DNA from: Sodaliphilus pleomorphus
Lineage (GTDB): Bacteria > Bacteroidota > Bacteroidia > Bacteroidales > Muribaculaceae
Direction of reading: 5' to 3'
Length of the DNA stretch: 64,000 nt
Assembly (NCBI RefSeq): GCF_009676955.1
Contig: NZ_CP045696.1
Coordinates: 1,300,501 to 1,364,500 of the forward strand
In this document: positions 35,745-49,939 of the stretch, in pieces
How positions within the stretch are numbered: the first letter of the stretch is position 1
Layout: every line of letters begins with the position of its first letter
Translations under genes and position numbers: made by a program
The notes under the pieces: model-generated
Seen by the model: only the letters and a program-made list of their open reading frames with translations
Told to the model about the DNA's origin: nothing
Databases searched by the model: none

Positions 35745-36356
35745 ATGGAAACAACTGAACAAAAGATTCTTGCGAGATTAAAAAGGGCAGGAAGGGGAAA
35801 AGTTTTCTTTCCCGACTATTTTGCCGACTTGGCATCTTCCGACAGTATACGAAAAGCCCTTGAGATCCTGACCTCAAAAGGAGAAATAATCAGGGTCGCA
35901 AGGGGTATATATTGCTACCCAAAGATAGATAACGAACTGGGCTTGGGTGTGCTAAATCCGTCGGTTGATGATATTGTGGCCGCTATAGCCAAGCGCGACC
36001 ACATGAAGGTGGTGCCCACCGGCGTACACGCTCAAAATCTGTTGGGCTTGTCAACACAAGTTCCCATGAACTTCGTTTATCTCACCAATGGATGGTCACG
36101 ACAAATCACTGTACTCAACGATATAAAAGTAAAGTTCAAGCAGACTGCTCTCAAGAACCTGGAGTTCAGCAGCTCACTTGCGATGCTCATCACCTTTGCA
36201 CTAAAAGATATTGGCAAAGATAATGTAACCGATGACCAGTTAACAAAAATTAAACAACTACTGCTCAATGAGCCCCAAAGTTTTGTTGATAAAGATTTAG
36301 TTTTGATGCCCGTGTGGATTAGAAAAATTGTAACTTCAGCTTATGGACAGGAATAA
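35745..36356 (+). CDS. AbiEi-type antitoxin / transcriptional regulator
   Basis: 203 residues from ATG 35745. The N-terminus is a winged helix (TTEQKILARLKRAGRGKVFFPDYF, then SIRKALEILTSKGEIIRVARGIYCYP) as in AbiEi antitoxins of type IV toxin-antitoxin systems; the remainder is the antitoxin C-domain with PTGVHAQNLLGLSTQVP. AbiEi represses its operon and counteracts the AbiEii nucleotidyltransferase. It overlaps the toxin gene by 14 nt. A TTG codon 12 bp upstream is an alternative start. Region is AT-richer than flanking genes. Confidence 0.85.
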   Translation: METTEQKILARLKRAGRGKVFFPDYFADLASSDSIRKALEILTSKGEIIRVARGIYCYPKIDNELGLGVLNPSVDDIVAAIAKRDHMKVVPTGVHAQNLLGLSTQVPMNFVYLTNGWSRQITVLNDIKVKFKQTALKNLEFSSSLAMLITFALKDIGKDNVTDDQLTKIKQLLLNEPQSFVDKDLVLMPVWIRKIVTSAYGQE

Positions 36357-37353
36357 TTACTTCGCCCTTGATGTTTCGCACCAGCGTTACTTGCTTGAGC
36401 AAGCAACTGGCAAAGCAGGACTCCCCCCTCAGGCAATAGAGAAAGATATATGGGTCTCTACCACTTTGCAACTAGTATTCACATTGCCATTTGCCGACAA
36501 ACTGATTTTTAAAGGTGGAACATCGCTTTCAAAAGTGTGGGGAATCATTAATCGTTTTTCCGAAGACATTGATTTGGCAGTTGACCGTTCACTGTTTGGC
36601 TTAGAAGGCGATTTAACAAAGAAACAACTCAAGAAGTTGCGCAAAGCATCATCACTATTTGTGCGCGAAGATTTCAAAAACGCTCTCCAACAAGCTATTG
36701 AGGATAGCGGATTAAGTCACTTTTGTTCATTGGAAGCAGAACCCGACGGAGAAGACGACAGCACATATCCCGAGCCCCGCAAACTGTTTCTTCATTATTC
36801 GAGCGCACTGAGTGACCGATTGGGCTACATTAAACCTATGGTTATGTTGGAGATTGGTGCGCGGTCGTTGTTTGAACCGAACAAGAAGTCCAGAATCCAA
36901 AGTATTATAGAGGATGTGTTCCCCACTATTAAGACCTCACTGGTTGACGCGGAATTAGCGACAGCCACCCCGGGAAAGACATTCCTTGAAAAAGTGTTCT
37001 TGCTGCACGAGTTGTTCTCAATTCCGGGGCACGGCATGAATGCCAACCGCAAGTCGCGCCATCTCTATGACCTGTATCGGATGATGGACAAAGACTTTGC
37101 ATGGGCCGCGGTGAAGGATGACCGGTTGTGGGAAACGATACGCCACCATCGCGAGATCTTCACGTCGGTTCGCGACATGGACTACACTCCCGATATCAGG
37201 CAGCGTCTTGTCTTGGTTCCTCGTGAAGACATCATCGACAACTGGCGGCGCGACTACGAGGTGATGTGCCAAGCCATGATTTATGGCGACAAACCCACCT
37301 TTAGCGAGTTGCTTGAAGCCATGCACGAGCTTGAGAACCGTTTCAAGCACTGA
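36343..37353 (+). CDS. AbiEii/AbiGii-type nucleotidyltransferase toxin
   Basis: 336 residues. DNA polymerase beta-like nucleotidyltransferase motif FKGGTSLSKVWGIINRFSEDIDLAVD gives Gly58-Gly59 and the metal-binding pair Asp75/Asp77. A conserved HELFSIPGHGMNANRKSRHLYDLYRM segment follows, typical of this family. AbiEii toxins modify tRNA or other acceptors and halt growth, giving phage abortive infection. Pairs with the preceding antitoxin gene. Sequence after about 37 kb is more GC-rich, as if parts have different histories. Confidence 0.88.
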   Translation: MDRNNYFALDVSHQRYLLEQATGKAGLPPQAIEKDIWVSTTLQLVFTLPFADKLIFKGGTSLSKVWGIINRFSEDIDLAVDRSLFGLEGDLTKKQLKKLRKASSLFVREDFKNALQQAIEDSGLSHFCSLEAEPDGEDDSTYPEPRKLFLHYSSALSDRLGYIKPMVMLEIGARSLFEPNKKSRIQSIIEDVFPTIKTSLVDAELATATPGKTFLEKVFLLHELFSIPGHGMNANRKSRHLYDLYRMMDKDFAWAAVKDDRLWETIRHHREIFTSVRDMDYTPDIRQRLVLVPREDIIDNWRRDYEVMCQAMIYGDKPTFSELLEAMHELENRFKH

Positions 37354-37450
37354 ACGCCGACACAATAGCAGCTACACGTTGCGTTCCGCCATAAACGAGA
37401 AAACCGCCTTTGTCGGGCGGCTCTCTCGGTGTGCTGGGCAGTGCTACTGC

Positions 37451-37681
37451 TTAATTGGCACTGAAAACATAGCCATCTTGAAAGTTATAGTCATAGGCGA
37501 AAAGTGTGCGAATAAAGGCGGGCACAATTGAAATATGACTTTAAAAACACTCTGGGGTGCCCTCCAACATGCAGCAATTTTCTACAAGCTGCTCGGCATA
37601 CTCCTCCTCGCTATTCCATTCGCCCTCATAGCACTTGTGGAAATCATCAACGCCCATGTCAGTGTCACACTTCAGCTCCAT
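37451..37681 (-). pseudogene. ArdA-like antirestriction protein, C-terminal remnant
   Basis: From ATG 37681 on the minus strand the frame reads VDDFHKCYEGEWNSEEEYAE and on to a TAA at 37541-37543, then in the same frame VPAFIRTLFAYDYNFQDGYV and stops at 37451. Both pieces match the end of ArdA proteins (YxGeW.SEEeFAe..; F.rdLF..DY.F.dGyVF). The N-terminal half is missing and an in-frame stop interrupts it, so it is dead. ArdA mimics DNA and blocks type I restriction; it is usually carried by mobile elements. The 72-residue plus-strand ORF here is its shadow. Confidence 0.55.
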
Positions 37682-37700
37682 GAAAGCCTTTCATGGAGCT
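37674..37700. repeat. Perfect 12-bp inverted repeat at the ardA remnant edge
   Basis: AGCTCCATGAAA (37674-37685), loop GCC, TTTCATGGAGCT (37689-37700). It marks where the ardA-like frame is truncated, as a fold-back rearrangement would leave. Confidence 0.7.
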
Positions 37701-37803
37701 CTCTGAAAGTTCGGCATATTAACGGATTTTGTCAAAGACTTTCGATTTTTTGAAAAAACAGGCAAAAAAAATTGTATGTCATAAAAATTTATTATTTTTA
37801 CAG

Positions 37804-38024
37804 TGCGGAATGGCAACATTCCGCAACAGACATATTGAAATAGAAAGCTTTATGCTTATTCTTGTCATGTGAAAACCTAGGAAATTTTCAAGATTAGAAC
37901 ACAAGAGAATGGCACAGCGGTTTCCACGTTATAGCGTGGGTTGCACTCATAATCCATCCTTTTTGTACTACTGGTTTTCCTAGGACCAACACATGACAAA
38001 GCGTGGCATAGCAGTCCGCGCTTT
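37804..38024. other. Multi-hairpin intergenic element with 23-25 bp terminal inverted repeats
   Basis: Three parts. (1) TGCGGAATG-GCAA-CATTCCGCA, 9-bp stem with a GNRA loop (37804-37825). (2) An imperfect inverted repeat, 37862-37884 with 37975-37999, sharing TTGTCATGTG and CCTAGGAAA blocks, that brackets a CCACG-TTATAG-CGTGG hairpin (37924-37939). (3) AAAGCGTGG (37998-38006) with CCGCGCTTT (38016-38024). Either a MITE-like element or a structured RNA. No target duplication is evident. Confidence 0.6.
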
Positions 38025-38082
38025 CTTAGTATCTATTTTTATGAGCATAGGGCTGGTGCTCTAATCTAATTGTGATGAGAAT

Positions 38083-38724
38083 ATGACGTTTCTTGAACAC
38101 ACCTATTGCCGACGACAACGGCTTTCCACATTGTGGACTGCCGATGAACTTGTTTGGGAAGAGATTGGGCCTAAGCTGACTACCGGTGGCCATAATTATT
38201 ACCAGCACTTCACTCAGCTTTATGCATCTTACCCCAATGCTCTCCCCGAAGCAACAAGAATTATTGAGAAACATCTTGTTTGCATTTTGAATCGCCCTTA
38301 TCGCGACTTCGAGGAATTGTATGATTTCATTGAGCAATTGCTTGCCAACCCCTCCATCCCCTCGTTTAATGTACAAGGAATCGGGTGGGTCGCGCTTTAT
38401 GACATTGCGCTGCGCATCGGTTGCAACCTGCGACCCCGTGTCATCCCCAAAGACTATGTATATCTCGGCGCAAACAAGGTGCGCGACGCGGCTAATACGT
38501 TAGTGCCGGGCATAGTGTCGGGCAATGTGTTCAGAGTGCCTATTATCAAGCTTGCCGCATTCTTCCCACACTTTACCTCAATGGAGATTGAGGATATCTT
38601 GTGCATCTATAGTGATAAGATTAAAGAGGCAGGAAAGTTCAAACTCAAGTGGCTAAACAACTGCCCTGTGTTCAGTGCAAATAAAGAAAAAAACGGAGGA
38701 AGCCGAAAATCCATTAAAGAGTAG
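38083..38724 (+). CDS. Hypothetical protein, possible helix-hairpin-helix, unknown family
   Basis: 213 residues, no signal peptide or membrane segment. Mostly helical; residues about 90-115 (SIPSFNVQGIGWVALYDIALRIG) have a helix-hairpin-helix-like G-h-G pattern, and PKDYVYLGANKVRDAANTL follows. The C-terminus is Lys/Asn-rich and basic. I do not recognise the family. It is the first of two genes in an AT-rich accessory stretch next to AbiE, preceded by the structured element at 37804-38024. DNA binding is only a guess from the HhH-like segment. Confidence 0.65.
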   Translation: MTFLEHTYCRRQRLSTLWTADELVWEEIGPKLTTGGHNYYQHFTQLYASYPNALPEATRIIEKHLVCILNRPYRDFEELYDFIEQLLANPSIPSFNVQGIGWVALYDIALRIGCNLRPRVIPKDYVYLGANKVRDAANTLVPGIVSGNVFRVPIIKLAAFFPHFTSMEIEDILCIYSDKIKEAGKFKLKWLNNCPVFSANKEKNGGSRKSIKE

Positions 38725-42939: not shown

Positions 42940-45083
42940 CCTAATTTGACAGTTTGTTGTATTAACGTGTTACTACACAATACTTTACATAGTAAAGTAA
43001 TGTAGCTAATTTTTCGGTGCTGCAAGGATTAACCTTTGTTAACCTTTCGGTAGAACGCGTTCATCGCTGCTTTTGTGATTATCTGTTTGTTAACTTCCAC
43101 ACCGGCAAGCTCTTGCAGTTGGTCGGTGAGGCTGGTGCGCTGGAACATGGGCACGTATCCCAGTCCCTGGATTTGTCCGAAGCGCAGGTTCTGGAGAGTG
43201 TCGATCAGCTGGTCGACGGTCAGGGGGTGCTCCTTGTAGGCCTCGGGGAACGAGTCGGCCAGCTGCTTTTGCAGGAGCTTGAGCAGCAGCAGTGCGAGGA
43301 AGCAGACGAGGAAGTGGGAGCGGATGCGGTCCTGCCTGGAGAGGTAGACGGGTCTGGCCTCGAGGTGGGTCTTGGTGGTGCGGAACAGGTGCTCTATCTC
43401 GTGATGGAAGGAGCGTGCCTTGAGCACGAACGCGGCCTCGTCGTCGAGCGAGGTGGCGTAGGCGTAGAAGCCGTCGAGCTTCTCCTCCTGCCCTAGGATG
43501 TCGTCATTGATGACCATCTCGGTCTTGACGGCCGTCTGTCCGTCGTCGGTCTTGTGTATGGTCTCTATGTAGTTGAGCGGTGACTGCTGCGAGCGGCGCG
43601 GGTTGGCCTGCCCCCTGGCCACTATCTTCCTGGCCGCCGCGAGGCGCTCGGCGCGCTTGTGCCTGAGGAAGAGGGCGAAGTCGTGGCTGTAGGTGATGAT
43701 GACCCTCTCGGCCCTGGAGGAGCTTTGCCATTGCCTGATGCGTCGCCCCCGGGCGTCGACGGGCGTTGCGCCGGGGTTCTCCCTGCGGGCCTCGAGCCAC
43801 TGCGGGTTGAGGCATTTCACGGTTTTGTCGACAAGTATCTCCTTGTAGAATGTGGTCTGGCGCAGCAGGGAGCTGTCAGCCTGGCCGCCCTCGCGCAGCA
43901 CGTCCAGGTTGTAGAGGCCGCCGTCGGAGTACTTCTCGTGCAGCAGCCTGGCCTTTTCCCCGTCGGCGCAGTAGCCCAGCCTCCAGCCCCTGGGGTCGAC
44001 GGCGGCCCGGCGGTCGGCGGCGGGCAGCGAGGGGATCGACTGGACGCAGATGTAGTCGCGGCCCTGGTCCATGTTGTAGCGCCGGTTGCCCTCCGAGGCC
44101 AGGCCGGCGTCGGTGGAGACGACGAACTCGGTCAGGCCGAACTTGCGCCTCAGCACATCCTCGAGCGGCTGGAGCGTGGCCTGCTCCGACTCGTTGCCCG
44201 GGAAGACCACAAAGGCCAGCGGGATGCCGTCCATGTCCATGAACATGCCCATCTGCACGATGGGGCTGGGCCGGTTCTCTTTCGACTTGCCGCGCTTGCG
44301 CAGCCCGGCCACGAGCTCGCCGGTCTCTATGTTCACCGTGTCCCTGTCGTTGTCCTCGATCTCGAAGTAGTAGTTGGTGCAGTCGTAGTAGATCACCCTG
44401 TCCCTGCGTTCCATGAACCTGGCCGAGCAGGCGTAGACGCCGGCCTGGATGTCGTCGATGTGGCCCGAGAGCAGGCTCAGGGCCCGGTACATGTCGGCCT
44501 CGCCGAACTTCGGGGGCCGCACCAGCCCCTGCGCCTTTCGCAGCGTCCTCTGCTTGGAGCAGGGGAAGAGCAGACGGCCCGTGACCAGCGTCCTCAATAT
44601 CCCGTCGAGGTCGAACTTCGCCTTGCTCGCCTTCTTGATCTCGGCGCACATGCGGGGCAGGCCGAGCCTGTTGTAGAGCGGCAGCAGCATCAGGTCGCCG
44701 CCCGCCCGCAGAGGCAGGTCGCCCATCCCCACGGTCTGGCCCGGGTAGAAGTCAACCGAAATGCGCTCCCTGCCGGCCTTCTCCTCCTCGGTCATGCGGG
44801 CCGCCAGGTCCCTGACCCACTGGCGCGGGTCCTGGCAGCCGTACTTGCGCCTGATGTCCTCAAGCAGCCCCAGCCGCCTGACAGTCTTTGTGGTAGACTT
44901 GCCGTCGATGCGCACCGACTTCTGGATGTAAGCCCACGTGCCCTTCTTTGTAGTGCCGAATGTCGCCTTCATATCGATAATCCTTTAATGTAATAACTAC
45001 TATTAGCTACAAATATACAAATAAAAAATGAACTGTGCAACAATTCATTAGAAAAAATTTTACACTCTAACTGTCAAAGTCCC
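42940..45083 (-). mobile_element. IS1634-family insertion sequence (2,144 bp)
   Basis: Ends deduced from the flanking duplication. Terminal inverted repeats share TTTGACAGTT: the left end reads CCTAATTTGACAGTT, and the right end on the complementary strand GGGACTTTGACAGTT (11 of 15 match). One complete transposase gene fills it. Long, variable target duplications are a known property of the IS1634 type element. Confidence 0.9.
43029..44972 (-). CDS. IS1634-family transposase (IS4-superfamily DDE)
   Basis: 647 residues, full length. DDE features: YYDCTNYYFEIEDND (first Asp) at about 195, the VVSTDAGLASEGNR region (second Asp) about 290, and the C-terminal YxxK-type HHEIEHLFRTTKTHLEARPVYL with the catalytic Glu, followed by the IS1634 hydrophobic helix ShFLVCFLALLLLKLL. 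No frameshift or stop, so probably active. Strongly GC-rich (codons like host's). Oriented opposite to the OmpP1-like gene. Confidence 0.93.
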   Translation of the reverse strand: MKATFGTTKKGTWAYIQKSVRIDGKSTTKTVRRLGLLEDIRRKYGCQDPRQWVRDLAARMTEEEKAGRERISVDFYPGQTVGMGDLPLRAGGDLMLLPLYNRLGLPRMCAEIKKASKAKFDLDGILRTLVTGRLLFPCSKQRTLRKAQGLVRPPKFGEADMYRALSLLSGHIDDIQAGVYACSARFMERRDRVIYYDCTNYYFEIEDNDRDTVNIETGELVAGLRKRGKSKENRPSPIVQMGMFMDMDGIPLAFVVFPGNESEQATLQPLEDVLRRKFGLTEFVVSTDAGLASEGNRRYNMDQGRDYICVQSIPSLPAADRRAAVDPRGWRLGYCADGEKARLLHEKYSDGGLYNLDVLREGGQADSSLLRQTTFYKEILVDKTVKCLNPQWLEARRENPGATPVDARGRRIRQWQSSSRAERVIITYSHDFALFLRHKRAERLAAARKIVARGQANPRRSQQSPLNYIETIHKTDDGQTAVKTEMVINDDILGQEEKLDGFYAYATSLDDEAAFVLKARSFHHEIEHLFRTTKTHLEARPVYLSRQDRIRSHFLVCFLALLLLKLLQKQLADSFPEAYKEHPLTVDQLIDTLQNLRFGQIQGLGYVPMFQRTSLTDQLQELAGVEVNKQIITKAAMNAFYRKVNKG

Positions 45084-45806: not shown

Positions 45807-46337
45807 ATGAGAAAGATCACATCCACTCCCCTGCTTGTGCTGGCCGTGCTGTTGCTGGCCACGGGCTGCGTGGGCAACGACGCCAGCGAGCCTGCAAGCT
45901 ACGGCAAGGCAAGCTACAGCATCACCCTGGGAAACGACATGCTTGACGCCGCCTCGCAAGTAACGATAAAATACAGCGACGGCGAGAAGACCCAGAGTCT
46001 CACCATCGATGCATCCAGCCTCGACGGCAACACGTGGACCCGCACGGTGACTGCCGACCTGCCTGCCGACTTCGGCTTCAGCATCACCTTCACGCCCAAG
46101 CCCGGCAGCGAGCTCACGCGCGAGAGCTACACGCTGCGCACCACGGCCCGCATCAACATCGTCACCAATGTCGGTTCGGGCTCGAGCTTCCACGGCAACC
46201 CCGTGCCCGTGGTGGAGGCAGCCACGACAGCCCGCGCCGACGTGCCCGCTACCCTCGCCCAGGCCAGTGGCACCACTGTGGCCTACCATGTCGACGACGC
46301 CGGCACCATCACTGCCTCGCAGTCGAAACGACAATAA
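45807..46337 (+). CDS. Lipoprotein, unknown function
   Basis: 176 residues. Signal peptide with lipobox LLATGC, Cys21. The mature part is beta-rich and looks like one immunoglobulin-type domain (SQVTIKYSDGEKTQSLTIDA ... TWTRTVTADLP), followed by an Ala/Thr/Val-rich tail ending in TASQSKRQ. No family recognised. It precedes oxyR by 79 bp on the same strand and may share transcription, but no functional tie is evident. Confidence 0.75.
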   Translation: MRKITSTPLLVLAVLLLATGCVGNDASEPASYGKASYSITLGNDMLDAASQVTIKYSDGEKTQSLTIDASSLDGNTWTRTVTADLPADFGFSITFTPKPGSELTRESYTLRTTARINIVTNVGSGSSFHGNPVPVVEAATTARADVPATLAQASGTTVAYHVDDAGTITASQSKRQ

Positions 46338-46416: not shown

Positions 46417-47322
46417 ATGACTCTGCAGCAACTTGAATATATCGTGGCCTTGGACCGCTATGGCAACTTTGCCAAGGCCGCCTTTGCGTGCGACGTGACC
46501 CAGCCCACGCTGAGTGCAATGATACAGAAGCTCGAGGCCGAGCTGGGCCTGAAAATCTTCGACCGCCGCCGGCAGCCCGTGGTGGTGACCCGCGACGGCC
46601 GGGCCGTGATAGCGCAAGCCCGCGAGGTGCTGCACCAGGCACAGCGCTTGCGCCAAATTGTAGACGAGGAAACCGAGTCGCTGCACAGCACCTTTGTCAT
46701 AGGCGTGCTGCCCACCATAGCGCCCTATCTCATCCCGCACTTCTTCCCCCAGCTCATGAATGCGCACCCCGAGATGGACGTGCGCATCGTGGAGATGAAG
46801 ACGGCTACCATGAAGAAAGCCCTGGTCGAGGGCGAGATCGACGCCGGCATTGCCTCGCGCGTCGACGGCCTCGACAACTACGACTGCCACGAGCTCTACA
46901 GCGAGCGATTCATGGCCTATGTGGCCCAAGGCGACCCACTGGAGGCCAAAGAGCGCATCAAGACCTCCGACCTCACGGGAGCCTACCTGTGGCTGCTCGA
47001 CGAGGGCCACTGCTTCCGCGACCAGCTCGTGAAGCTGTGCAGCCTCAAGGCCGCAACCCAGAGTAAGAAAGCCTACTCGCTGGGCAGCATCGAGACCTTT
47101 ATGCGCATTGTCGAAAACGGGAAAGGTGTGACCTTCATCCCCGAGTTGGCCCTGGCCCAGCTCAACGACTACCAGCGCTCGCTGGTGCACCGTTTTGCCA
47201 TGCCCGAGCCACGGCGCGAAATCGTGATGATAACGATGCCCCACTTCCTGCGCCACAAGCTGCTCAAGATCATCGTCGACCGCATACGCAGCTGCGTGGC
47301 GCCCTTGCTGCTTGCCAAGTAG
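46417..47322 (+). CDS. oxyR: OxyR, hydrogen peroxide-sensing LysR-type activator
   Basis: 301 residues from ATG 46417 (MTLQQLEYIVALDRYGNFAKAA). An apparent longer frame runs from 46168 through the preceding lipoprotein gene and is a shadow. LysR winged helix at 1-60; co-inducer domain after. The redox cysteines fall at Cys199 and Cys208 in GHCFRDQLVKLC, the same numbers as in E. coli OxyR. Oxidation by peroxide to a disulphide turns it on. Convergent to the three dps genes whose upstream regions carry candidate OxyR sites. Its final codons are duplicated as remnants at 48066 and 48886. Confidence 0.95.
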   Translation: MTLQQLEYIVALDRYGNFAKAAFACDVTQPTLSAMIQKLEAELGLKIFDRRRQPVVVTRDGRAVIAQAREVLHQAQRLRQIVDEETESLHSTFVIGVLPTIAPYLIPHFFPQLMNAHPEMDVRIVEMKTATMKKALVEGEIDAGIASRVDGLDNYDCHELYSERFMAYVAQGDPLEAKERIKTSDLTGAYLWLLDEGHCFRDQLVKLCSLKAATQSKKAYSLGSIETFMRIVENGKGVTFIPELALAQLNDYQRSLVHRFAMPEPRREIVMITMPHFLRHKLLKIIVDRIRSCVAPLLLAK

Positions 47323-47333
47323 AAAACAAAGAG

Positions 47334-47363
47334 AATGCACAGCGCCGGGGCGGCCTGTGCATT
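47334..47363. terminator. Hairpin between oxyR and dps copy 1
   Basis: AATGCACAG (47334-47342) with CTGTGCATT (47355-47363), GC-rich inner pairs; serves both convergent genes. Confidence 0.75.
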
Positions 47364-47400
47364 GCTCACTATATACATTTTATATCAGGGTTTCAATAGC

Positions 47401-47883
47401 CTACTCGTGTTGCGTGCTCCAAGCTGCCAGCATCCAGGCCAGCTTCTCCTGCTCCTTGAGGTAGTCGCTCATCATCGACACCGTGACCTCGTCGCCAGCC
47501 TGAGAGGCGCTCGACAGGATTTCGCGCTCCTGAGCGATGAGCACCTTGAGCACGTCGATCACATAGCTCAAGCCCTGCTTGCCGCACGACACGACGTCGA
47601 TCTCGGCCACTTGTGCCTGCTTGAGGTAGACCGAGAAGCGGTGCTCGGGAGTGGCGTCGAGTTGCAGCATGCGCTCGGCCACCTCGTCGATCTTGCCTGC
47701 CACGTCGTTGTAGAGCTCCTCATATTTCTCGTGCAGCACAAAGAAGCCCTTGCCTTTTACATTCCAGTGCAGGTTGCGCAGGTTGGTATAGTGCACTTGC
47801 AGGTTGGCCAGAAGCATCGACAGGCCGCTCACTACCTTACTCACATTGTTTGCATTCATTCCAGTTACTTCTATAGTTTTCAT
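47401..47883 (-). CDS. dps: Dps-family ferritin-like DNA-protection protein, copy 1
   Basis: 160 residues, a four-helix ferritin-like protein. The inter-subunit ferroxidase ligands are placed as in Dps: His39, His51, Asp66 and Glu70, with spacing identical to E. coli His51/His63/Asp78/Glu82. Dps dodecamers oxidise iron with peroxide and store it, protecting DNA. The N-terminus lacks the lysine-rich DNA-binding tail of E. coli Dps. Differs from copies 2 and 3 at only a handful of residues, mostly near the ends. Own promoter at 47936-47944 and OxyR-like box at 47978-48002. Confidence 0.95.
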   Translation of the reverse strand: MKTIEVTGMNANNVSKVVSGLSMLLANLQVHYTNLRNLHWNVKGKGFFVLHEKYEELYNDVAGKIDEVAERMLQLDATPEHRFSVYLKQAQVAEIDVVSCGKQGLSYVIDVLKVLIAQEREILSSASQAGDEVTVSMMSDYLKEQEKLAWMLAAWSTQHE

Positions 47884-47935
47884 AATTTAAATCCTTATTT
47901 TTTGTTAGTTAATATTCTGTTTTGATTTCTCTGTT

Positions 47936-47944
47936 GCAAAAGTA
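47936..47944 (-). promoter_or_regulatory. -7 element of dps copy 1
   Basis: TACTTTTGC on the minus strand, 53 bp before the start codon. Confidence 0.7.
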
Positions 47945-47977
47945 GCATGCCCCGCTCCCCCTCACAACAGCCACAGT

Positions 47978-48002
47978 CTATCGCCTGGTAGACAAAATCT
48001 AT
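47978..48002 (-). promoter_or_regulatory. Candidate OxyR operator, dps copy 1
   Basis: CTAT, six bases, GTAG, seven bases, CTAT: half-sites at 10-11 bp spacing; upstream of the -7 element by about 34 bp. Confidence 0.5.
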
Positions 48003-48065
48003 AACCACACACAACCAGTTATCACACAATACATTATAAGCAAAGTCACAATCCACGATCATTTC

Positions 48066-48125
48066 AAAAAAAACGGCAAGGCTGTAACCTTCATCCCCGT
48101 GGCGCTCCTGCTGCTTGCCAAATAG
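48066..48125 (+). pseudogene. oxyR 3'-end remnant 1
   Basis: Reads KNGKAVTFIPVALLLLAK and stop, matching OxyR ENGKGVTFIP joined directly to its last eight residues VAPLLLAK; about 50 codons are deleted in frame. It shows that the duplicated unit once carried the oxyR end. Confidence 0.75.
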
Positions 48126-48145
48126 CTCCCTCCTCCAAAAGAGAC

Positions 48146-48175
48146 AATGCACAGCGCCGAAGCGGCCTGTGCATT
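48146..48175. terminator. Hairpin after dps copy 2
   Basis: Same AATGCACAG/CTGTGCATT hairpin as at 47334, arms 48146-48154 and 48167-48175. Confidence 0.75.
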
Positions 48176-48224
48176 GCTCACTATATACACTTGATATCAG
48201 GTTTACAATAGCTCAATGGTGGTG

Positions 48225-48704
48225 CTACTGTTGCGTGCTCCAAGCTGTCAGCATCCAGGCCAGCTTCTCCTGCTCCTTGAGGTAGTCGCTCATCATCGAC
48301 ACCGTGACCTCGTCGCCAACCTGAGAGGCGCTCGACAGGATTTCGCGCTCCTGAGCGATGAGCACCTTGAGCACGTCGATCACATAGCTCAAGCCCTGCT
48401 TGCCGCACGACACGACGTCGATCTCGGCCACTTGTGCCTGCTTGAGGTAGACCGAGAAGCGGTGCTCGGGAGTGGCGTCGAGTTGCAGCATGCGCTCGGC
48501 CACCTCGTCGATCTTGCCTGCCACGTCGTTGTAAAGCTCCTCATATTTCTCGTGCAGCACAAAGAAGCCCTTGCCTTTTACATTCCAGTGCAGGTTGCGC
48601 AGGTTGGTATAGTGCACTTGCAGGTTGGCCAGAAGCATCGACAGGCCGCTCACTACCTTACTCACATTGTTTGCATTCATTCCAGTTATCTCTAAAGTCT
48701 TCAT
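48225..48704 (-). CDS. dps: Dps-family ferritin-like protein, copy 2
   Basis: 159 residues. Same iron ligands (His39, His51, Asp66, Glu70). Differences from copy 1 include Leu4 and Ile6 for Ile and Val, Val for Ala in SQVGDEV, Thr for Ala in WMLTAW, and the C-terminus STQQ. The upstream 180 bp, including promoter and OxyR-like box, is nearly identical to copy 1, so this pair is the youngest duplication. It starts 821 bp from copy 1. Confidence 0.95.
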   Translation of the reverse strand: MKTLEITGMNANNVSKVVSGLSMLLANLQVHYTNLRNLHWNVKGKGFFVLHEKYEELYNDVAGKIDEVAERMLQLDATPEHRFSVYLKQAQVAEIDVVSCGKQGLSYVIDVLKVLIAQEREILSSASQVGDEVTVSMMSDYLKEQEKLAWMLTAWSTQQ

Positions 48705-48755
48705 AATTTCTATTTATTTTTTTGTTAGTTAATATTCTGTTTTGATTTCTCTGTT

Positions 48756-48764
48756 GCAAAAGTA
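48756..48764 (-). promoter_or_regulatory. -7 element of dps copy 2
   Basis: TACTTTTGC on the minus strand. Confidence 0.7.
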
Positions 48765-48797
48765 GCATGCCCCGCTCCCCCTCACAACAGCCACAGT

Positions 48798-48822
48798 CTA
48801 TCGCCTGGTAGACAAAATCTAT
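48798..48822 (-). promoter_or_regulatory. Candidate OxyR operator, dps copy 2
   Basis: Same CTAT-N6-GTAG-N7-CTAT arrangement as copy 1. Confidence 0.5.
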
Positions 48823-48885
48823 AACCACACACAACCAGTTATCACACAATACATTATAAGTAAAATCACAATCCACGATCATTTC

Positions 48886-48945
48886 AAAAAAAACGGCAAG
48901 GCTGTAACCTTCATCCCCGTGGCGCTCCTGCTGCTTGCCAAATAG
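48886..48945 (+). pseudogene. oxyR 3'-end remnant 2
   Basis: Same internally deleted oxyR tail as at 48066, identical by eye. Confidence 0.75.
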
Positions 48946-48965
48946 CTCCCTCCCCCAAAAGAGAC

Positions 48966-48995
48966 AATGCACAGCGCCGAAGCGGGCTGTGCATT
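48966..48995. terminator. Hairpin after dps copy 3
   Basis: AATGCACAG (48966-48974) with CTGTGCATT (48987-48995). Confidence 0.75.
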
Positions 48996-49035
48996 GCTCA
49001 TTCTATACACTTCTTGTGTAAGGGTTTCTAATAGA

Positions 49036-49518
49036 TTACTTCTGCTCTGCGCTCAAGGCGGCCAGCATCCAGGCCAGCTTCTCCTGCTCCTTGAGGTAGT
49101 CGCTCATCATCGACACCGTGACCTCGTCGCCAGCCTGAGAGGCGCTCGACAGGATTTCGCGCTCCTGAGCGATGAGCACCTTGAGCACGTCGATCACATA
49201 GCCCAAGCCCTGCTTGCCGCACGACACGACGTCGATCTCGGCCACTTGTGCCTGCTTGAGGTAGACCGAGAAGCGGTGCTCGGGAGTGGCGTCGAGTTGC
49301 AGCATGCGCTCGGCCACCTCGTCGATCTTGCCTGCCACGTCGTTGTAAAGCTCCTCATATTTCTCGTGCAGCACAAAGAAGCCCTTGCCTTTTACATTCC
49401 AGTGCAGGTTGCGCAGGTTGGTATAGTGCACTTGCAGGTTGGCCAGAAGCATCGACAGGCCGCTCACTACCTTACTCACATTGTTTGCATTCATTCCAGT
49501 TACTTCTATAGTTTTCAT
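49036..49518 (-). CDS. dps: Dps-family ferritin-like protein, copy 3
   Basis: 160 residues with the same ferroxidase ligands. It shares MKTIEVTGMN with copy 1, but has Gly for Ser in KQGLGYVIDV and ends AALSAEQK. The coding DNA and the first 65 bp upstream match the other copies; beyond that the upstream DNA diverges, so this is the outermost and probably ancestral unit. Its candidate OxyR box (49614-49638) differs in sequence but keeps the same spacing, which argues for function. Confidence 0.95.
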   Translation of the reverse strand: MKTIEVTGMNANNVSKVVSGLSMLLANLQVHYTNLRNLHWNVKGKGFFVLHEKYEELYNDVAGKIDEVAERMLQLDATPEHRFSVYLKQAQVAEIDVVSCGKQGLGYVIDVLKVLIAQEREILSSASQAGDEVTVSMMSDYLKEQEKLAWMLAALSAEQK

Positions 49519-49571
49519 AATTTAAATCCTTATTTTTTTGTTAGTTAATATTCTGTTTTGATTTCTCTGTT

Positions 49572-49580
49572 GCAAAAGTA
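49572..49580 (-). promoter_or_regulatory. -7 element of dps copy 3
   Basis: TACTTTTGC on the minus strand. Confidence 0.7.
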
Positions 49581-49613
49581 GCATGCCCGTCGCCCTCCCG
49601 CAACAGACGTGCC

Positions 49614-49638
49614 CTATGGCACAATAGAAGAAACCTAT
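49614..49638 (-). promoter_or_regulatory. Candidate OxyR operator, dps copy 3
   Basis: CTAT-N6-ATAG-N7-CTAT. The ATAG-N7-CTAT part equals one E. coli OxyR dyad. From here to 49939 I see no gene. Confidence 0.55.
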
Positions 49639-49939
49639 CATTGCAAGCAAATTACTGTTTATCAATATTTTATATCCATAAATCAGGGTTCAAAATCATT
49701 TCAAAAAAAAATTTTTTTTGCCACATCGGCTCTACAATCATATTAAATGTAAAAGAAAATTGCAGTCACCTGAATATTTTTATGCGATAACACACGCAAA
49801 AAAGTAACCGTTTCCTACTTGTCGCAGCACAACGGCCTGTTGCGCGTGACGTTGCTGGCAACAGTGCCCTCAGGCCAGTCATGGCACAGCCCATTCTACC
49901 TGGCCACAAAAAAAATTGAGGGATAATTGCACCGAAGTA

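Follow-up and report, generated by a model that had tools for sequence, protein, structure and literature searches.

Why does the chromosome of Sodaliphilus pleomorphus carry three almost identical dps genes in a row, all facing a single oxyR, and where did this arrangement come from? The array lies in a 64,000-nucleotide stretch (assembly GCF_009676955.1, contig NZ_CP045696.1, positions 1,300,501 to 1,364,500, forward strand), which we refer to as the window and from whose first nucleotide coordinates are counted. The source genome is a single contig of 3.34 Mb. With a probability that we put at roughly 0.7, an oxyR–dps module of Prevotella affinity was acquired by this lineage, tripled in tandem and homogenised, which would raise the dose of peroxide-induced Dps.

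The three dps genes are on the minus strand in the open reading frame (ORF) list, and a repeat comparison shows them to be repeated in direct orientation at intervals of 821 and 814 bp: dps1 (47401..47883, 160 aa), dps2 (48225..48704, 159 aa) and dps3 (49036..49518, 160 aa). The array stands tail-to-tail with oxyR (46417..47322, plus strand), and two identical 60-nt relics of the oxyR 3' end (48066..48125 and 48886..48945, plus strand) sit between the dps copies. A hairpin at 47334..47363, between the convergent ends of oxyR and dps1, is likely their shared terminator; equivalent hairpins follow dps2 (48146..48175) and dps3 (48966..48995). The corresponding stretches (47330-47372, 48142-48184 and 48962-49004) fold at −23.5 (z −4.9), −24.0 and −24.0 kcal/mol, and 0, 0 and 1 of 200 shuffles fold equally well. 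Upstream of each gene, on the minus strand, are a −7 element, TACTTTTG, at 47937..47944, 48757..48764 and 49573..49580, and an OxyR-type operator at 47967..48002, 48787..48822 and 49603..49638. As read from the DNA, each copy is a self-contained unit consisting of a putative OxyR operator, a −7 element, dps and a hairpin. The initial annotation had described three near-identical genes of 159-160 residues facing oxyR at 814-821 bp spacing, each with its own hairpin and −7 element, and the ORFs, repeats, Pfam matches and folding energies agree with that description. The OxyR operators, the diverged ends of the third copy and the Prevotella affinity, discussed below, go beyond it.

All three proteins match PF00210 (Ferritin), scoring 73.3-73.8 bits where the cut-off is 24.5. 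The dps1 product matches 58 PDB sequences, the best being 3iq1, a 'DPS family protein', over residues 6-155, and its H39, H51, E55, D66 and E70 align with H, H, E, D and E of that structure. We take these positions to be the Dps ferroxidase residues; the stretch that holds them is identical in the three proteins. The dps1 product scores below the equivalog cut-offs of the three NCBIfam Dps models (59.5 against 170, 51.6 against 300 and 45.5 against 114 bits), which by name and description look halophile, cyanobacterial and E. coli-type. Because these models appear to suit other groups, family membership rests on PF00210 and the PDB matches. At the family level the proteins are taken as Dps mini-ferritins, for which a 12-mer, DNA binding and iron oxidation with H2O2 are predicted. 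One close database Dps (P0006, 141 aa) lacks 19 residues after NLRNLH and with them one ferroxidase histidine, and is perhaps a recombination product. Elsewhere in the source genome (G000:C1:1534806-1535648) there are two weak ferritin-family matches, one of 29 bits and one of 20.5 bits that stays under the cut-off; both are probably ordinary ferritin-like genes.

The regulator is a LysR-type peroxide sensor of 301 aa with matches to HTH_1 and LysR_substrate in Pfam, and its four best PDB matches are all chains named OxyR. Its two cysteines, in GHCFRDQLVKLC, are both matched in the alignment to the OxyR structure 3ho7 with the spacing C-x8-C, and presumably form the redox pair. It does not reach the NCBIfam OxyR equivalog cut-offs (202.7 against 329 bits for PRK11151, and 172 bits for another OxyR model whose cut-off is 500); PRK11151 OxyR is nevertheless its top-scoring NCBIfam family. 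A longer ORF of 384 aa starting at 46168 was considered as oxyR and rejected as an over-extension.

The two relics of this gene show how the array may have been built. They agree at 60 of 60 positions, contain no Met, and read KKNGKAVTFIPVALLLLAK up to a stop after an in-frame loss of 153 nt; the initial annotation had described them as internally deleted oxyR tails that still read in frame. Its further proposal that the duplicated unit spanned the end of oxyR plus dps is supported. Each relic begins with an A run that is also present upstream of dps3, where an A run followed by a T run occupies 49703..49719, and oxyR itself contains AAAA at 47114-47117. The recurrence of the A run upstream of dps3, together with the AAAA inside oxyR, leads us to infer that the first duplication probably joined these A tracts, which would then mark its two ends.

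The history of the array after that event is recorded in the uneven divergence of its copies. In the coding sequences, dps1 and dps2 differ by 3 synonymous and 6 other codon changes, dps1 and dps3 by 4 synonymous (one of them in the stop codon) and 6 others, and dps2 and dps3 by 3 synonymous and 9 others, mostly within codons 2-6 and 153-161. Between copies 1 and 3 the middle is nearly invariant, with 60/60 identical positions across core promoter plus leader, 18/18 for codons 1-6 and 436/438 (99.5%) for codons 7-152, the last differing by one synonymous and one amino-acid change so that third positions are nearly identical as well. The flanks of the same two copies agree at only 75/122 positions upstream (61.5%), 17/27 from codon 153 to the stop (63%) and 58/78 in the 3' untranslated region; the dps3 protein ends in LSAEQK, the other two in WSTQHE or WSTQQ. 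The longest run of identity is 238 nt, a length that 0 of 10000 permutations reach, and the diverged upstream regions are still homologous, with an alignment score of 16 compared to a maximum of −7 in 1000 shuffles. Identity thus switches sharply from high to low at both ends of the tract, silent sites included, which is the criterion by which gene conversion is recognised.

The initial annotation had offered recent amplification or gene conversion as options, and the present data tell them apart. The spacer between dps1 and dps2 is 98% identical to that between dps2 and dps3 over 295 nt (from the dps promoter through the relic into the next terminator), and this spacer duplication would be a recent event. 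Recency of that kind, together with the identical relics, is what one would expect if all three units were simply young and conversion unnecessary. Amplification by itself is insufficient, as it does not account for a third copy that is 61.5% and 63% identical to the first at its ends yet 99.5% identical over codons 7-152. Since the outer parts of copy 3 are old and its central part is young, conversion or an equivalent recombination is needed, and we regard simple amplification as quite improbable. The pattern suggests that gene conversion probably took part.

A possible alternative to conversion inside the array is that the coding regions regained their identity by recombining, through allelic exchange or unequal crossover, with the dps alleles that other strains carry. 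One database protein (P0001) has the N-terminus of dps2, G106 as in dps3 and a C-terminal end like that of dps1, with some private changes, and another (P0002) likewise pairs G106 with the dps1 end. These mosaics may themselves be array members of other strains, and we consider exchange with other strains possible, though the less favoured source of the identity. That the assembly expanded one dps into three is extremely improbable: tandem repeats of ~820 bp are difficult for short reads, yet differences separate the copies at their two ends and among their codons, the genome is one contig, and some of the variants recur in close database proteins. Finally, the clustering of the differences in codons 2-6 and 153-161 could indicate that the copies are specialising, their N- and C-terminal differences altering DNA binding or leading to 12-mers of mixed composition. 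We think specialisation unlikely, given how few the changes are and that conversion, too, stops at the ends.

A second kind of conservation lies outside the converted tract. Each dps is preceded on its coding strand by ATAG-n7-CTAY-n6-ATAG-n7-CTGT, which corresponds to the OxyR-type consensus, namely four ATAG/CTAT-type half-sites forming two T-n11-A boxes. The central spacer here is 6 nt, compared to 7 nt in the E. coli OxyR site. At all three genes 22 nt separate the end of the operator from TACTTTTG, which begins 61, 60 and 62 nt ahead of the respective ATG; the name −7 element, used already in the initial annotation, is one that we take from Bacteroides promoters. Only three perfect operator matches occur in the 3.34-Mb genome, all at the dps array, and a scan of both strands of the window with up to 2 mismatches gives 6 matches compared to a shuffle mean of 0.05 and a shuffle maximum of 2.

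The dps1 and dps2 operators are identical. The dps3 operator also fits the pattern with 0 mismatches, its half-sites and spacing unchanged and its spacers different: relative to dps1, 15/16 half-site positions are kept compared to 7/20 spacer positions (Fisher p = 0.0003, for a motif spotted after viewing the sequence, though from a known consensus). Because the half-sites are conserved where the spacers are not, selection on the operator can be distinguished from homogenisation of the gene, and the dps3 operator appears to have been retained while its spacers drifted.

The operator is not peculiar to this array. Of 27 Prevotellaceae dps promoters (two more were dropped as too short), 24 have a box with ≤3 mismatches at a distance of 80-150 nt from the gene, compared to 2 of 2700 mononucleotide shuffles, which also serve as the control for the next two groups. 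In Muribaculaceae such a box precedes 11/15 dps genes (shuffles 3/1500), and in other groups 3/22 (shuffles 4/2200). Since the box recurs before the dps genes of relatives, it is a shared feature that all three copies have kept. Together with a weaker box before a likely ahpC, described below, the 24 Prevotellaceae promoters yield a usable OxyR motif for the group. OxyR would be expected to bind all three operators and to co-induce the three copies under peroxide.

These results raise the question of where the module came from. A Dps of this type was found in 1 of 101 genomes of the genus, the source genome itself, with no match in the 100 others searched. In the family it occurs in 16 of 397 genomes including the source, the other 15 having one copy each. 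In a Dps tree of 77 rows the window copies share a clade of 18 rows (support 100/99) with RUG isolates of uncultured Prevotella, which we presume from their names to be of rumen origin, and the 15 family Dps proteins lie apart from this clade. The OxyR tree has 58 rows, and in it the window protein belongs to a 14-row set with Prevotella RUG430 (L011), the nearest named row, and with unnamed proteins (95/88); this set is nested within a larger one that holds the other Prevotellaceae. Of 24 family OxyR rows, 20 are elsewhere in the OxyR-proper part of the tree and 1 is far off. Because Dps and OxyR of the window group with Prevotella in their respective trees and only one of 101 genus genomes has the Dps, lateral acquisition of oxyR–dps from a Prevotella-like relative is likely. 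Many close rows (P0122-P0141) are unnamed, and other carriers of the module may exist.

Several observations weigh against parts of this scenario. Many genomes of the genus set are incomplete, 48 of the 101 being ≥90% complete with low contamination. The genus is also not devoid of related proteins: all 41 genomes scanned for PF00210, among them 24 from other members of the genus, have a match, and a distant Dps-like protein may therefore be present there. A search for OxyR that covered 24 other genus genomes and an uncounted further share of the genus gave relatives of which the better ones are 33-37% identical. For OxyR the family is not cleanly apart, because three of its 24 proteins (L148, L154 and L155) adjoin the Prevotellaceae-plus-window set (union 99/96). 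The G+C content of oxyR and dps1, overall and at third codon positions (GC3), is near that of neighbouring genes and gives no transfer signal; because this composition is native-like, any transfer was not recent. No donor locus with the convergent oxyR–dps order was found among the loci compared: in RUG430 the two genes are divergent and ~1 kb apart, and 14 of the 15 family dps carriers have a divergent, head-to-head oxyR at 117-151 bp (L072-L086 with L149-L170).

As regards expression, OxyR binding and dps expression at the array are predictions. Outside the array six genomic hits have ≤2 mismatches, compared to 4 for a backward control. Homogenisation is incomplete, since the dps2 leader and codons 1-6 (14/18) differ from both neighbours. 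A profile search limited to PF00199 found no heme catalase. Of the six outside hits, four lie in open frames and one at an opposite-strand open-frame start, and these were rejected as further OxyR targets. The sixth carries 2 mismatches, and 74 nt separate its end from the ATG of what is likely ahpC (a 188-aa ORF matching PF10417 at 29.2 bits; L095 860-1540, near 3231750 on G000:C1); from this box to a −7-like TTCCTTTG we counted 22 nt by hand, equal to the spacing at dps.

Some of the same data bear on vertical inheritance, according to which oxyR–dps is ancestral and was lost by the other genus members. The presence of dps in 15 of 396 other family genomes, 14 of them with the adjoining divergent oxyR, and the position of the three family OxyRs beside the Prevotellaceae set would fit an old family gene pair. 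Such a history requires loss in all 100 other genus genomes searched, and it would leave two groupings to be accounted for: that of the window Dps with Prevotella and away from the 15 family proteins, and that of OxyR inside the Prevotellaceae set. We therefore judge vertical inheritance improbable. Among the 15 family carriers, G131 has oxyR and dps ~2.5 kb apart.

The surroundings of the array were compared as well. An empty-site comparison was made at hppA with 11 regions from genus relatives (one of them only 8 kb long), and in the matching place upstream of hppA it gave no counterpart for any of 21 window proteins; the downstream gene 54900 was matched in 2 of the 11, with two weak matches (28-31%) elsewhere, and ARAGORN found no tRNA in any of the 11 regions. 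Carriage by phages was considered and rejected, as 7 viral_contigs stretches matched a pattern and none held a relative of the window Dps. An IS1634-family transposase (window 43029-44972, 285.3 bits) ends ~1.4 kb before oxyR. Two genes at window 36343-38724, with G+C of 0.46-0.48 and GC3 of 0.52-0.55, are below the other window genes tested and are possibly a mobile insert.

Taken together, these data suggest how acquisition, tripling and homogenisation could have followed one another. An oxyR–dps module of Prevotella affinity would have entered the lineage, no such Dps having been found in the 100 other genus genomes searched. In a first tandem duplication the A tract upstream of dps would have been joined to the AAAA inside oxyR, giving a unit composed of the oxyR 3' end, the terminator, dps and its promoter, and the orphaned oxyR tail would then have lost 51 codons. 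A later unequal crossover may have copied the relic-containing spacer and brought the number of copies to three. Gene conversion or equivalent recombination would since have maintained near-identity in the core promoter and across most of the coding sequence, leaving the outer parts of copy 3 to drift. OxyR, once oxidised by peroxide, activates defence genes against it, dps among them. Under peroxide, oxidised OxyR would fire all three units together and cause a larger burst of Dps, which would oxidise and store Fe(II) and shield the DNA, with a possible gain in fitness. The presence of the operator on every copy argues for such an effect on Dps dose.

We speculate further, and only tentatively, that the array is a self-maintaining dosage device built on an OxyR–dps pair taken from Prevotella and then amplified, in which conversion homogenises the cores, selection holds the copy 3 operator outside the converted tract, and copy number varies between strains with oxygen exposure. 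The locus lends itself to testing one way in which an anaerobe could come by peroxide defence, namely by acquiring a regulator with its target and then multiplying the target.

How unusual is such an array? Among 28 dps-bearing genomes that were checked, RUG759 has four dps matches, Prevotella jejuni has two, one genome has a split gene and the remaining 25 have a single copy; multiple copies are thus uncommon in this sample but recurrent. The split gene, in Hoylesella shahii (L049), consists of two overlapping pieces in different frames and reflects a frameshift or a sequencing error. In RUG759, a Prevotella metagenome-assembled genome (L009, L008; G438), three of the four matches are on one contig, the three compared copies are 87-89% identical (424-430 of 483-486 nt), and the two with enough upstream sequence carry the box with 1 and 2 mismatches. 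It is a separate multi-copy case, which resembles the window array in having more than one dps, partly in tandem. The two tandem dps genes of P. jejuni (L017 6001-7256) are 782 bp apart and 84% identical (413 of 489 nt), and no box can be recognised before the second (6 mismatches), which suggests regulatory divergence within the pair. In both genomes the copies have diverged, whereas the coding cores of the window array are near-identical.

Each component of the array has precedents. Concerted evolution is known in tandem bacterial gene families, where the coding core is homogenised and the flanks diverge; the window array is alike in its homogenised core and differs in consisting of three single-gene stress units with a conserved operator outside the tract. 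A literature search confined to open-licence PMC texts found no homogenised tandem dps in titles or abstracts. An OxyR–dps regulon is known in Bacteroidales such as Bacteroides fragilis, Porphyromonas gingivalis and Prevotella intermedia. OxyR control of dps is described for P. intermedia, where ahpC, ahpF and dps need OxyR for their induction and the response of dps to air and H2O2 is lost without it (PMC7999485). Against that Bacteroidales regulon, in which 25 of our 28 genomes have a single dps, the window has three tandem copies convergent with oxyR. Dps itself is described as taking up Fe(II), apparently using H2O2 (PMC8115020). In Streptomyces, highly similar dps pairs (mean identity 97%) and lateral acquisition are reported (PMC3613396); only one gene of each pair is there said to be induced by osmotic stress, whereas all three window copies keep the same operator. 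With multi-copy dps already known in Streptomyces and present in two of the Prevotella genomes examined, the array illustrates well a type that has been seen before, and it is built of known parts.

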